In this document: piece by piece, positions 2,548-64,000 of the stretch
Position numbering within the stretch: position 1 is the stretch's first letter
Layout of the letters: every line of letters starts with the position of its first letter
Assembly: GCA_022772085.1 (NCBI GenBank)
Contig: JALFBN010000003.1
Span: forward strand, 124,001-188,000
Length of the DNA stretch: 64,000 bases
Source of the DNA: Porphyromonas sp.
GTDB lineage: Bacteria > Bacteroidota > Bacteroidia > Bacteroidales > Porphyromonadaceae
Direction of reading: 5' to 3'
The notes under the pieces: generated by a model
What the model saw: only the letters and a program-made list of their open reading frames with translations
What the model was told of the DNA's origin: nothing
The model's database searches: none
Position numbers and translations under genes: made by a program

Positions 2548-3324
2548 ATGAGTACTTCGTACACAACGGTTCGACTTGATTGTGAAGAAGGTATCGCTTT
2601 AATCACAATATCCAGACCCGAAAGTTTGAACGCACTTTCTCGTCAGGTGCTCGTAGAACTAGAGCAAGTGCTGCACGAAGTTTCCCAAGATTCTGATATT
2701 CGCGTCCTTCTCCTCACGGGAGAAGGGCGTTCTTTTGTTGCAGGGGCAGATATTGCCGAGATGAAGTCTCTGTCTCCTAATGAAGCAAAAGACTTTGGTA
2801 CCTTGGGAAGCCATGTATTCCGAAAAATCGAACAGATGCCCATGCCCGTAATAGCTGTCATTAATGGCTTTTGTTTGGGCGGTGGCTGTGAGATGGCTCT
2901 TAGTGCTGATATAAGGATAGCATCTTCCAAAGCGAAGTTTGGACAACCAGAAGTTGGGTTGGGTATCACCCCTGGATTTAGTGGTACTCAACGCCTTCCT
3001 AGAACGATTGGCGTAGGAAAAGCCAAGGAATTAATCTATACGGGTCGCATAATAAAGGCAGAAGAGGCACTTGCCATCGGGTTGGTTAATACGGTAGTTT
3101 CTCCAGAAGAACTGATGGCTACAGCTCAAGCTCTTGCAAAAGAAATTGCTCAACAATCTCCCAACGCCGTACGTTTATCAAAAGAGGCAATCAATAGAGG
3201 ATTACAGTCAGATATAGACACTGGGATTGCGGCAGAAAGCACGTTATTTGGTCTCTGTTTTGCCCATTCTGAGCAAACGGAGGGGATGAGTGCATTCCTA
3301 GAGAAGCGTACTCCTCGCTTTTAG
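2548..3324 (+). CDS. enoyl-CoA hydratase/crotonase family protein
   Basis: 258 aa; crotonase motifs SFVAGADIAEM, NGFCLGGGCEMALSADIRIAS, FGQPEVGLGITPGFSGTQRLPR. Confidence 0.93.
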   Translation: MSTSYTTVRLDCEEGIALITISRPESLNALSRQVLVELEQVLHEVSQDSDIRVLLLTGEGRSFVAGADIAEMKSLSPNEAKDFGTLGSHVFRKIEQMPMPVIAVINGFCLGGGCEMALSADIRIASSKAKFGQPEVGLGITPGFSGTQRLPRTIGVGKAKELIYTGRIIKAEEALAIGLVNTVVSPEELMATAQALAKEIAQQSPNAVRLSKEAINRGLQSDIDTGIAAESTLFGLCFAHSEQTEGMSAFLEKRTPRF

Positions 3325-3383
3325 AGTGATTCATTTTTGATAAAACTTCCCATTTCAATAGATACAATATAGATATAGTTAAG

Positions 3384-4229
3384 ATGAAAATAGCAGTTAT
3401 CGGTAATGGTACCATGGGTGCGGGTATTGTACAATGTGCAGCTCAACACGAAATGGATATCATCATGAAAGGTCGTAGTAAGGAATCTCTTGATAAGGCG
3501 ATGCTCAAGCTAAAGAAGAACTTTGCTCGTCTTGTAGAAAAAGGCAAGATTACCGAAGAACAATCTTTGCAATACTATACACACATACATGCTACTCAAG
3601 ATTTTGCGGATATAGCTGATGCAGACATCGTTATTGAGGCATTGTCTGAGGATATGGAGGTCAAGAAATCAACGCTTCGTAACTTGGACGGCATTATCAA
3701 GCCTGAAGCGATTTTTGCCACCAATACCTCTTCATTAAGCATTACGGAGCTAGCTTCCGTAACCAATCGAGCAGAAAAGGTAATCGGCATGCACTTTTTC
3801 AATCCAGTTCCACAGATGAAGCTTGTTGAAGTTATCAGTGGACAGTGTACAAGTACGGAGGTGTTGGATACCATCCTCTCTCTTTGTCAGCAGTTGGAAA
3901 AGACGGCGGTACGAGTTAGTGAAGCACCTGGATTCGTGGTTAATCGGATTCTAATTCCTATGATTAACGAAGCGATCGGTGAGCTTGCAGATGGTGTAGC
4001 AACCGCAGAAGAGATTGATGCCGCCATGAAATTAGGAGCCAACCACCCTATGGGTCCTCTAGAACTTGGAGACTTCATTGGCCTAGATGTTTGTCTTGCC
4101 ATCATGGAAGTACTTCACCGGGAATATGGGGATGACAAATATCGTCCCCATCCCTTGTTGCGTAAGAAGGTTCGAGCAGGACAGTTGGGACGCAAAACGG
4201 GATATGGTATTTATGACTACTCCAAGTAA
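3384..4229 (+). CDS. 3-hydroxybutyryl-CoA dehydrogenase
   Basis: 281 aa; N-terminal Rossmann [31 protein letters not shown]-terminal [16 protein letters not shown]. Confidence 0.93.
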
Positions 4230-61147: not shown

Positions 61148-61660
61148 ATGAATTTCATGGGAGATACGGATCCAAGAGTATTCCTATCGCTAGGTAGTAA
61201 TCTAGGGGATAGATGGCATTTGATATCTTCAGCCATTGACGCTCTGGCACAGCAGGTAGGTTCTATTGTTTCCATTGCCCCATACATAGAAACTCAACCT
61301 TGGGGATTCTCTTCAGAGTACCTATTCCTCAATACAGCCATTGAGATAAAAACCGACCTATCCCCTATGGAGTTGCTGAAGCAGACACAATCCATTGAGC
61401 ATATGTTGGGGAGGAAATACAAACATAAGGTGGGTGAAGCCTATCAAGATAGACCCATTGACATTGATATATTGCTGTACGGCGAAGAGATTGTTGACGA
61501 AAGCAATGAACTACAAGTGCCTCATCCGCTACTGCACAAACGAGATTTCGTACTCAATCCATTGTCTGCAATCGCTCCAAATGTAGTCCACCCGACGTCA
61601 CATCAGCGAATAGATTCCTTACTAACAGTTATCACAAATGAGTATAACCCACCTTACTGA
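61148..61660 (+). CDS. folK: 2-amino-4-hydroxy-6-hydroxymethyldihydropteridine diphosphokinase
   Basis: 170 aa; VFLSLGSNLGDRW, DRPIDIDILLYG, VPHPLLHKRDFVLNPL. Confidence 0.93.
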   Translation: MNFMGDTDPRVFLSLGSNLGDRWHLISSAIDALAQQVGSIVSIAPYIETQPWGFSSEYLFLNTAIEIKTDLSPMELLKQTQSIEHMLGRKYKHKVGEAYQDRPIDIDILLYGEEIVDESNELQVPHPLLHKRDFVLNPLSAIAPNVVHPTSHQRIDSLLTVITNEYNPPY

Positions 61661-63047
61661 TAATGCAACTATTTGTGCCCTTGCCTCTGGACGAGGGGGA
61701 GGGATTGCACTCATTCGGGTATCTGGGAGTGAGACTCTTCGGATTGTTTCGCACTTTTTTACGACCAAAGATGTCGAGTGGCGACCGAGACATGCCTACT
61801 ATGGTTTGTGGAAAATCCACGGAACGATCATTGACGAAGTCGTTGTTACCTACTATCGAATGCCTCACTCCTATACCGGAGAAGATCTCGTGGAGGTCTC
61901 GTGTCATGCCTCGCCATACATTATACGAACTATCATAGAGGGACTTATTAGAGAAGGTTGTCGCCCTGCCGACCCTGGAGAATATACATTGCGGAGCTAT
62001 CTTAATGGCAAAAAAGATCTCACGGAAGCAGAAGCCGTTGCAGATATTATTGTAGCAGAGAGTGCCGTCCAACATCGTATTGCTCTACAACAAATACAAG
62101 GAAGACTTCGCACAGAACTAGAGGGATTGCACAGTGCTCTCCTCAAATTTGCGTCTCTCATGGAGTTGGAATTGGACTTCAGTGAGGAAGATGTCGAGTT
62201 TGCCAACAGGGAGCAATTGCACACCTTAGCCGTCTCAATCGGTCAGCGTATTGACCAACTTATTGCTAGTTTTAATCAGGGAAAAAGTTTGCATGATGGT
62301 ATTCCCATCGCGATTATAGGTGAACCGAATACAGGTAAGAGTACGCTACTCAACGCTTTGTTACAAGAGGAGCGAGCCATTGTAAGTGATATTGCGGGCA
62401 CAACTCGAGATACTATTGAAGAACGTTTGATTATCGAGGGGGTCCTTTTTAGGATCATTGACACAGCAGGACTAAGAGAGACAAGCGATCCCATCGAACG
62501 TATTGGTATTGATCGCACCTATCAAAAGGCAGAGAAAGCCACAATTATTTTGGTACTTCTCGATGCCGTAAAAGTCTTACAAAGAGGGATAGATTCGCTT
62601 CTTGCACAGCTAGAACCCATAAAATCAGAGTCGAAGCAACAGATTATCTTGATCAATAAGATGGATCTGATCCCTGATAGCAAGGATCAAGAGCAGGCCC
62701 TTTCTTTGGTCACTTCTCATTTCCCTGAAAATTGCATCATACCATTATCGGCCAAAGAGGGACTTGGCATAAAGTCCCTTCAGGAGGCGATGCTCACTAC
62801 AAGTGGTGCATTACAAATCGGAGAAGAGGATATCTTTATCACGAACGAACGCCACCTAAAAGCACTTCAAGAGGCAAGAGAATACTTACTTCGGGTCCTT
62901 GACGCATTGGATACAGGGGTTTCTGCGGATCTAATTGTTCATGATCTACGATTTGTACTGAATGCTCTCGGTGAAATTACAGGAGACACCATCTCTGGAG
63001 AAGATATCCTTCACTCCATTTTTACTCACTTTTGCATCGGCAAGTAG
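61638..63047 (+). CDS. mnmE: tRNA uridine-5-carboxymethylaminomethyl(34) synthesis GTPase MnmE
   Basis: 469 aa; GEPNTGKSTLLNALL, DIAGTTRDTIEE, C-terminal FCIGK; overlaps the folK 3' end. Confidence 0.96.
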   Translation: MSITHLTDNATICALASGRGGGIALIRVSGSETLRIVSHFFTTKDVEWRPRHAYYGLWKIHGTIIDEVVVTYYRMPHSYTGEDLVEVSCHASPYIIRTIIEGLIREGCRPADPGEYTLRSYLNGKKDLTEAEAVADIIVAESAVQHRIALQQIQGRLRTELEGLHSALLKFASLMELELDFSEEDVEFANREQLHTLAVSIGQRIDQLIASFNQGKSLHDGIPIAIIGEPNTGKSTLLNALLQEERAIVSDIAGTTRDTIEERLIIEGVLFRIIDTAGLRETSDPIERIGIDRTYQKAEKATIILVLLDAVKVLQRGIDSLLAQLEPIKSESKQQIILINKMDLIPDSKDQEQALSLVTSHFPENCIIPLSAKEGLGIKSLQEAMLTTSGALQIGEEDIFITNERHLKALQEAREYLLRVLDALDTGVSADLIVHDLRFVLNALGEITGDTISGEDILHSIFTHFCIGK

Positions 63048-63088: not shown

Positions 63089-63118
63089 AAAGGCACTCAT
63101 TATGAGTGCCTTTCCTTT
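63089..63118 (+). terminator. Rho-independent terminator downstream of mnmE
   Basis: AAAGGCACTCATTATGAGTGCCTTT followed by CCTTTT. Confidence 0.7.
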
Positions 63119-63236
63119 TGCCTTTTCTGTTCGTTAGGCATCGTTCGACGCTGTTCTTTCGCACATTTCTGTACCTCATTTGTACCGCAGGCTCCTCACC
63201 CGCCCGACAGCCCCTCGCGTATATACCGAGATGCCG

Positions 63237-63280
63237 GACAAAGTTGACAATGGCTGACAATAATTGACGATAGTAGACAA
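63237..63280 (+). repeat. five GACAA-type direct repeats with ~10-bp spacing upstream of the HTH gene
   Basis: GACAA at 63237, 63246, 63256, GACGA at 63266, GACAA at 63276; spacing 9/10/10/10 bp; ends 24 bp before ATG 63304. Confidence 0.8.
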
Positions 63281-63303
63281 ATAATGGCGAAATGATAAGT
63301 GAT

Positions 63304-64000
63304 ATGGCAGGAAGCAAAATACCCATCAAGAAAATATGCGAGTATTGTAATTCAGAGTTTTACGCTCACAAGGGAAGTACAAGATATTGTTCGCACACTT
63401 GCAATAGTAGAGCCTATAAACAAATGAAGCGAGAGGCGAAAACACGTACTATTGAAACAGCAGAACAAGAGAAAAAAGTCAAGGATATTATATCTCGTCC
63501 TTACCTCAAAATCTCAGAAGCTGGAAGGTTGCTCGGAGTCGCTCGACAGACTATATATGAGCACATTTATGCTGGTCGCCTCAGAGCCTCCAAGATAACA
63601 AGCCGTCTTTCTGTTGTCAGGCGTGAAGACATTGAGCTGATGTTAGCGGAGCGGCCTTATGAGAAGCGACAACCAAGAGATACAATCGTAATCACTGATC
63701 TATATACGACAGACGAGGTCTGCGAGACCTACACTATTGCTCGTTCTACACTCTTTGCGATAGCCAAACGTGAGCATATTCCTCGCACTCATAACCGAGG
63801 TAAGACCTATTGGAGTAAACGACACATTGATGCCTACTTTGCGAAGAAAGCCCCCGATGCTTCGATTACAGAATGGTGTACAGCCGAAGATATATCGTCT
63901 CGCTTTGGCATGACTACTACAGCGGTCTACAACTTCGTCTTTGACCACAATATTCCCAAGAAGAAGGTCAAAGGGAAAAGTTATTACTCTACACAGCACG
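63304..64000 (+). CDS. Zn-finger plus tandem (three) excisionase-type helix-turn-helix domain protein, truncated by window edge
   Basis: Open frame from ATG 63304 to window end with no stop: MAGSKIPIKKICEYCNSEFYAHKGSTRYCSHTCNSRAYKQ...YLKISEAGRLLGVARQTIYEHIYAGRLRA...LYTTDEVCETYTIARSTLFAIAKREHIPR...WCTAEDISSRFGMTTTAVYNFVFDHNIPKKK. Missing from the supplied ORF track because it has no stop. Confidence 0.85.
   Translation, partial: MAGSKIPIKKICEYCNSEFYAHKGSTRYCSHTCNSRAYKQMKREAKTRTIETAEQEKKVKDIISRPYLKISEAGRLLGVARQTIYEHIYAGRLRASKITSRLSVVRREDIELMLAERPYEKRQPRDTIVITDLYTTDEVCETYTIARSTLFAIAKREHIPRTHNRGKTYWSKRHIDAYFAKKAPDASITEWCTAEDISSRFGMTTTAVYNFVFDHNIPKKKVKGKSYYSTQH

Follow-up and report, generated by a model that had tools for sequence, protein, structure and literature searches.

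A phased array of four 10-bp units was found immediately upstream of a gene encoding a protein with a Zn finger and four tandem helix-turn-helix (HTH) modules. The array lies on the left attachment arm of an integrative mobilizable element (IME). With a probability of roughly 0.7, we consider it to be a ladder of binding sites for a directionality factor of the excisionase type, lined by the first HTH module (HTH1) of protomers placed head to tail. The array, its conservation, its co-variation with HTH1, the exchange of cassettes and the spacing described below were computed. The window, that is, the whole stretch of 64,000 nucleotides analyzed here, comprises bases 124001-188000 of a 315-kb contig from a genome of 2.06 Mb, and the feature lies at its end. 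The following 60 kb beyond the window were also analyzed (window position = L002 position + 62499). Coordinates are collected in Table 1.

Table 1. Features at the left end of the element, in window positions
Feature	Position	Strand	Remarks
mnmE (trmE), host gene	61638..63047	+	Intact 469-aa ORF; integration site at its 3' end
attL core TGCATCG	63033..63039	+	Within the last mnmE codons; from right-end comparison of related elements
Inverted repeat AAAGGCACTCATTATGAGTGCCTTT, terminator-like	63089..63113	n/a	Just inside the element; read from sequence
Putative integrase arm-type sites TGTACC	63170-63175, 63181-63186	+	Role suggested by motif recurrence
Fifth GACAA, most upstream	63237..63241	+	9 bp from the next unit
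Phased array, four 10-bp units GTTGACAATG GCTGACAATA ATTGACGATA GTAGACAAAT	63243..63282	+	Conserved part; proposed HTH1 filament site
Zn-finger + 4x HTH_17 protein gene, 304 aa	63292..64000, continues to equivalent of 64206	+	Proposed RDF/excisionase
Zn finger C16, C19, C33, C37	63337..63402	+	Within the exchanged cassette
HTH1, residues 71-118	63502..63645	+	Recognition helix 85-93; candidate specificity residues Q86, E90; within the exchanged cassette
HTH2, residues 137-186	63700..63849	+	Conserved backbone; does not follow the word
HTH3, from residue 194	63871..64000	+	Cut by the window end; HTH4 beyond
Integrase gene	equivalent of 64252-65397		Just after the four-HTH gene

The element and its integration site

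An earlier note on this DNA had proposed that the locus belongs to an integrative element, which was borne out by the genes present past position 64000. After the four-HTH gene, the order was a tyrosine integrase, a further gene, a small HTH_17 protein, DUF3987, a Zn-ribbon/DUF6371 protein (presumably primase-like), a NikA-like/MobC protein and a MobA/VirD2-type relaxase. The integrase matched Phage_integrase (E=4e-21) and contained Arm-DNA-bind_5 and SAM_5 domains, and the relaxase, lying beside the NikA-like/MobC accessory protein, matched PF03432 (E=9e-38). No T4SS-like gene was recognized among the listed ORFs, part of which were annotated, from the integrase to the right end. With a site-specific integrase, a relaxase and accessory protein without complete conjugation machinery, and defined att ends, the element is, judging from its gene content, an IME at the mnmE 3' end, for which excision and transfer are predicted.

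In 85 of 105 homologous loci, representing 27 of 32 clusters, mnmE was the gene immediately 5' of the element; related elements with mnmE visible join it at TGYATCGGCAAGTA or at a closely similar sequence. At the right, related elements terminate in ...GATGCTGCATCG, with GATGYTGCATCG as the terminal sequence, and the right junction in Hoylesella (L105) is TGCATCGGCAAATGA, that is, the mnmE terminus. Because this junction restores the mnmE terminus, the core is approximately TGCATCG and the last mnmE codons are copied on the element. TGCATCG was present at both element ends, which gives att ends at the target gene. It should be noted that the right end in G000 was located by comparison with Hoylesella and Alloprevotella, not by a long repeat of the mnmE terminus. 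Comparison of L102 with the element also revealed a self-complementary 25-bp match at the inverted repeat AAAGGCACTCATTATGAGTGCCTTT.

Relatives with ~90-93% DNA identity over ~6-8 kb could be identified in other Porphyromonas, Alloprevotella rava and Hoylesella saccharolytica, the carriers being gut and mouth bacteria. Homologous elements were present in 77 of 399 sampled genomes of one Bacteroidales family, or about one in five, and a scan of viral contigs for homologues of the four-HTH protein revealed none.

The genome of the window contains two tandem right ends (GATGCTGCATCG; L003 ~1237 and ~3772), which therefore suggests that a second unit with the Mrr gene was accreted and kept its own end. 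Defence genes follow the relaxase as cargo in the accreted island (L002:8929-19264 and L003:2022-2957), namely an Avs2-like NTPase, a type I restriction system (HsdR/HsdS/HsdM) and an Mrr-like type IV enzyme. A type V-A CRISPR-Cas system (L003:4207-11340; contig C14 ~210706-217839), comprising Cas12a (1261 aa), Cas4, Cas1 and an array of ~20 repeats, begins ~430 bp outside the second right end. In the nearest relative by mnmE (L041 of G396, positions 2893-3830), ~900 bp lie between the mnmE end and a second core-like TGCATCGACAAATAA, after which element-like sequence is found, possibly a small insertion or remnant.

The Zn-finger/HTH protein

Three HTH modules had been counted in the window, which truncates the protein; the full 304-aa version has four HTH_17 modules. 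The zinc finger read from the same sequence stands, since C16, C19 and C37 were invariant in 45 homologues and C33 nearly so. Profile matches were obtained with HTH_17 (E=2e-28), TIGR01764 excise (E=1e-14) and PHROG 66 'excisionase and transcriptional regulator' (residues 9-236, E=8e-23), the last being an annotation only, without site or mechanism. AlphaFold predicted a Zn finger, a long helix and four winged HTHs (mean pLDDT 87.7) with uncertain relative placement of the domains (pTM 0.43). For single modules, Foldseek revealed similarity to Pukovnik Xis (TM 0.87), BldC (0.78) and RdfS (0.64). A tyrosine integrase was located directly 3' of the four-HTH gene in 93 of 96 loci. The Xis/BldC-like fold, the adjoining tyrosine integrase and the att-arm geometry of the site at which the protein is predicted to bind are those of a winged-HTH excisionase/RDF.

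Longer natural proteins (488-552 aa, with seven or eight HTH modules where counted) occur in L200, L204, L205, L208 and L210, several of which have an extra two-unit array upstream. A second protein of the element, with a single HTH_17 module (L002:3814-4173), could be the true excisionase, or alternatively a replication regulator.

The array and its conservation

Five GAC(A/G)A units at 9/10/10/10 bp had been noticed and were recovered here, starting at 63237, 63246, 63256, 63266 and 63276. Three consecutive GACRA at 10 bp occurred twice without mismatch, with a chance expectation of 0.02 per 64 kb estimated for a pattern searched with at most one mismatch. The fifth, most upstream unit was degenerate (GATAA) in the nearest relative L126. 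The interval of 24 bp given between the array and the ATG applies to the second ATG (63304), the first in-frame ATG being at 63292. Motifs of the TTTGTACC/TTTCTACC type were found ~53 and ~65 bp 5' of the array in most loci, and TTGTACC/GGTACAA was also found close to the right end of the element. The idea that the GACA units themselves are integrase arm sites was rejected, as no other such array was found in the 60 kb covering the element and TTGTACC motifs lie near both element ends.

A total of 110 distinct homologues from Bacteroidales genomes were grouped into 34 clusters at 65% identity. The search upstream of homologues that had been proposed as a check came out in favour of the array: at least three of four AC cores at an exact period of 10 were identified in 30 of 34 clusters, compared with a mean of 4.1 and a maximum of 10 in 100 dinucleotide shuffles, and with 5 of 34 clusters in the next upstream region. 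All four cores at period 10 were found in 19 clusters (0.14 in shuffles) and, at periods 7-9 and 11-14, in none of the 34. Composition-free autocorrelation was 0.65, 0.62 and 0.59 at lags 10, 20 and 30, and 0.40 and 0.45 at lags 9 and 11. Some of the four clusters missed have arrays with another core, such as TTGAATATGG in L125. In L011/L007 (1-1037), whose protein is 81% identical to that of the window, no array was found in the 113 bp before the contig end; mnmE is also absent from this fragment, possibly owing to rearrangement.

Within a single locus the word is largely common to the four units, and between loci it varies: GTTGACAATG in the window, TTTTACGCCA in L015, TGAGACGCTG in L157, TGGTACGTCA in L154, TGGGACACCC in L206, TTGCACACGG in L023 and GTATACACCC in L170.

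Exchange of the array together with HTH1

The link between protein and repeats, only surmised in the earlier note, gains support from the co-variation of the word with HTH1. In a partial Mantel analysis of 86 four-module proteins, the correlation of word with HTH1, given the other modules, was r=0.665 (permutation maximum 0.107), whereas values for the Zn finger, HTH2, HTH3 and HTH4 were 0.007, -0.12, 0.005 and 0.03, respectively, although such permutation statistics are inflated by related sequences. Among pairs with HTH2-4 more than 85% identical, word distance was 0.39 if HTH1 was similar (n=103) and 2.18 if it was different (n=122). The suggestion that the tandem HTH modules share the array was not upheld: only HTH1 tracks the array word.

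Individual loci showed the same pattern. L146, L157, L161 and L138 carry four different words. Their DNA is 85-96% identical over the 200 bp preceding the array, 29-68% across the array itself and 51-60% across Zn+HTH1, and the values are 90-95% for HTH2-4 and 95-98% for the integrase. The pair L119/L164 gave 98% (outer arm), 60% (array), 55% (Zn+HTH1), 95% (HTH2-4) and 99% (integrase). The array and the Zn-finger/HTH1 region are exchanged as one specificity cassette with an identity of about 50-60% between flanks that are 92-99% identical, while HTH2-4, integrase and outer arm remain constant. On the tree of HTH2-4, at least 22 word changes could be counted among 41 proteins.

Residues of HTH1 and bases of the word

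Among the columns of HTH1, z against the word was highest for Q86 (with N3 and N4) and E90 (with N2), both of which belong to the predicted recognition helix (85-93). In an ungapped alignment of the helix, they fall on Lys26 and Arg30 of BldC (numbered from the PDB sequence), which are reported to make the major-groove base contacts in that protein, where Arg30 recognizes the G of a 5'-YpG step (PMC5859096). In proteins with Arg in the E90 column, N2 was G in 78 of 80 units and in 20 of 20 loci, nearly always as TpG, compared with G in 5 of 120 units with other residues. The arrays of R-type proteins read TG, and the window allele has E at the Arg column, where the contact is a predicted one. 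On the HTH2-4 tree, Arg and G each change at least 11 times, and joint change was observed in all five supported independent pairs, a number with which the p value of a sign test cannot fall below 0.06.

At the Q86 column, locus consensus associated Q with TTGAC (11/13), P with TTTAC (6/6), A with GAGAC (8/8), T with GGTAC/GGAAC (5/5) and S with GGGAC (3/4), and R mostly with C before AC (5/6). A third position was also involved: Q-type proteins in which R85 is replaced by L/V have TTGAA, not TTGAC (L123, L125, L128, L144, L147 and L168). Near-minimal pairs include SRQAIYKM-type helices with TTGAC versus SLQAVYKM with TTGAA, and RQTIYEH with GTTGAC versus RHTIYRY with TGAGAC. Altogether, at least seven site words could be matched to two to three recognition-helix residues, which makes the recognition rules of a widespread domain directly testable.

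The rules were written before 20 further loci were fetched, some of which are close to earlier loci; registers in diverged held-out arrays were read by eye. G at N2 was found in most units of all held-out Arg loci (L220-L222, L223/L224 and L236) and in none of the others. R at the Q86 column went with C before AC in L235, L236 and L239, and Q with G in most units of L227, L233, L237 and L238. Q-type exceptions were L228-L232 (G in 2/4 units) and L225/L226 (1/3), in which the bases before AC are mixed, and the rule for column 22 was kept in L223/L224 and broken in L235. On the basis of such co-variation, the word and the HTH1 residues appear to be connected by a residue-to-base recognition code.

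Geometry of the left arm and alternative readings of the array

By analogy with BldC and Xis, we infer that several copies of the protein would align head to tail, each HTH1 on one 10-bp unit. Such a filament would introduce a bend between the core and arm sites of the integrase and so promote excision, and it probably also represses the protein's own promoter. HTH2-4 may bind the integrase, other DNA or each other. The array and Zn-finger/HTH1 evolve and recombine together as a specificity cassette.

The geometry of the arm is relevant to this proposal. In single-array loci with a recognizable mnmE core, the core-to-array distance was 203 +/- 6 bp, 22 of 34 loci being at 196-202 bp and 9 of 34 at 207-212 bp, that is, one unit more; loci with a distance of 255 bp have an extra two-unit site ~55 bp nearer the core. 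The interval of ~200 bp contains no sequence conserved between lineages (median aligned identity 48%, a random level). A fixed register with the core, kept across unconserved sequence, would be expected of an intasome part, and the constant spacing of the array from the core points first to excision. A different reading, to which we give a low although not negligible probability, takes the array as an operator only: the protein would shut down its own promoter, as an autorepressor or a repressor of the immunity type, and would take no direct part in recombination. Promoter and leader are expected in the stretch ahead of the ATG, and the array is found there, at a distance of 6-83 bp. In phage immunity cassettes, binding domain and site are exchanged wholesale, which resembles the swap observed here. 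The related directionality factor RdfS likewise binds the promoter of its own gene (PMC11963761). However, the array-to-ATG distance was loose (34 +/- 17 bp) and that to the att core tight across unconserved sequence, and a plain operator would have no reason to hold register with the core.

It is quite improbable that one protein molecule reads the whole array with one HTH module per 10-bp unit, an early idea of this analysis that was suggested by the commonest architecture of four modules and four units. It was rejected by the co-variation of HTH1 only, as all four units change word with HTH1 while modules 2-4 stay >85% identical, and by the module and unit counts: proteins with two or three modules are preceded by four to five units, and those with seven or eight by four units plus extra pairs. 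We consider it similarly improbable that the array and HTH1, which adjoin and swap together, co-travel by physical linkage only while the integrase or a host factor reads the array. The correlated columns are recognition-helix residues aligned with the base contacts of BldC, and the Zn finger, equally linked, has a partial r of ~0. The code also recurs in lineages with unrelated HTH2-4 and mostly held in loci fetched after the rules were fixed, and loci with different words can have integrases as much as 99% identical. The reading as a chance or low-complexity repeat, for which nothing speaks except the shortness of the array, is refuted by the shuffles, the period specificity and the recurrence in ~90% of clusters.

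Relation to known systems

The fold and the class of role (winged-HTH excisionases, BldC) are already known, as is the annotation as an excisionase (TIGR01764, PHROG 66). The proposed ladder is most similar to BldC (Streptomyces BldC-whiI/smeA, PDB 6AMK/6AMA, PMC5859096), which has a winged HTH of the HTH_17 type and lies head to tail on direct repeats about one turn apart, an arrangement that is predicted here, and whose Arg30/YpG and Lys26 contacts map onto the two specificity columns. On the other hand, BldC is a single 68-aa domain with 9-bp repeats and loose specificity, whereas here HTH1 is joined to a Zn finger and three further HTHs in one protein, the repeats have a 10-bp period, and specificity differs by allele and is exchanged. 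The protein, with its predicted binding, would work like BldC and is not a member of the BldC family, whose stand-alone domain differs from the four HTHs and Zn finger found here.

Winged-HTH excisionases are usually seen as weakly sequence-specific architectural proteins. Pukovnik Xis (4J2N), RdfS (8DGL, PMC11963761) and phage lambda Xis share with the present protein the fold and a neighbouring tyrosine integrase; their oligomers on an att arm beside integrase arm sites, and the action of RdfS on its own promoter, have proposed counterparts here. Each of them consists of one small domain whose sequence specificity is poorly defined, and no consensus motif was given by the authors of the RdfS study (PMC11963761), in contrast with the strict four-unit word linked to two helix residues observed here.

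IMEs at the trmE/mnmE 3' end are also known from the Salmonella Genomic Island 1 family (PMC8409611). This family is gammaproteobacterial, and the common use of the attachment site is probably convergent. To our knowledge, it has no tandem-HTH/array module. As far as the parts of the literature consulted describe them (PMC5704250), the Bacteroidota IMEs NBU1, Tn4555 and MTnPi likewise have a tyrosine integrase, a MobP-type relaxase and an RDF required for excision; these parts mention no mnmE site, phased array or swapped specificity cassette. In an open-access full-text search, with subscription journals outside its scope, the texts as far as they were accessible contained no description of a phased array, of allele swapping or of such a code.

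Co-resident elements

The control cassette was identified on elements in about one-fifth of the sampled genomes mentioned above, and it may explain how several related elements can stay side by side at one site. Tentatively, and with less confidence than in the binding ladder itself, it could be speculated that related elements with a shared att site and a near-same integrase escape mutual excision control by swapping the array/HTH1 cassette, which would be a natural heteroimmunity with a readable code. If so, new specificities of Xis/BldC-type domains should be predictable from the code. Copies on one contig were found 12-43 kb apart in several genomes. Co-resident copies with the same backbone differ in word in G969 and in G1133 (on different contigs in the latter), and G258 and G1185 have two copies each, which belong to different lineages and both carry TTGAC.
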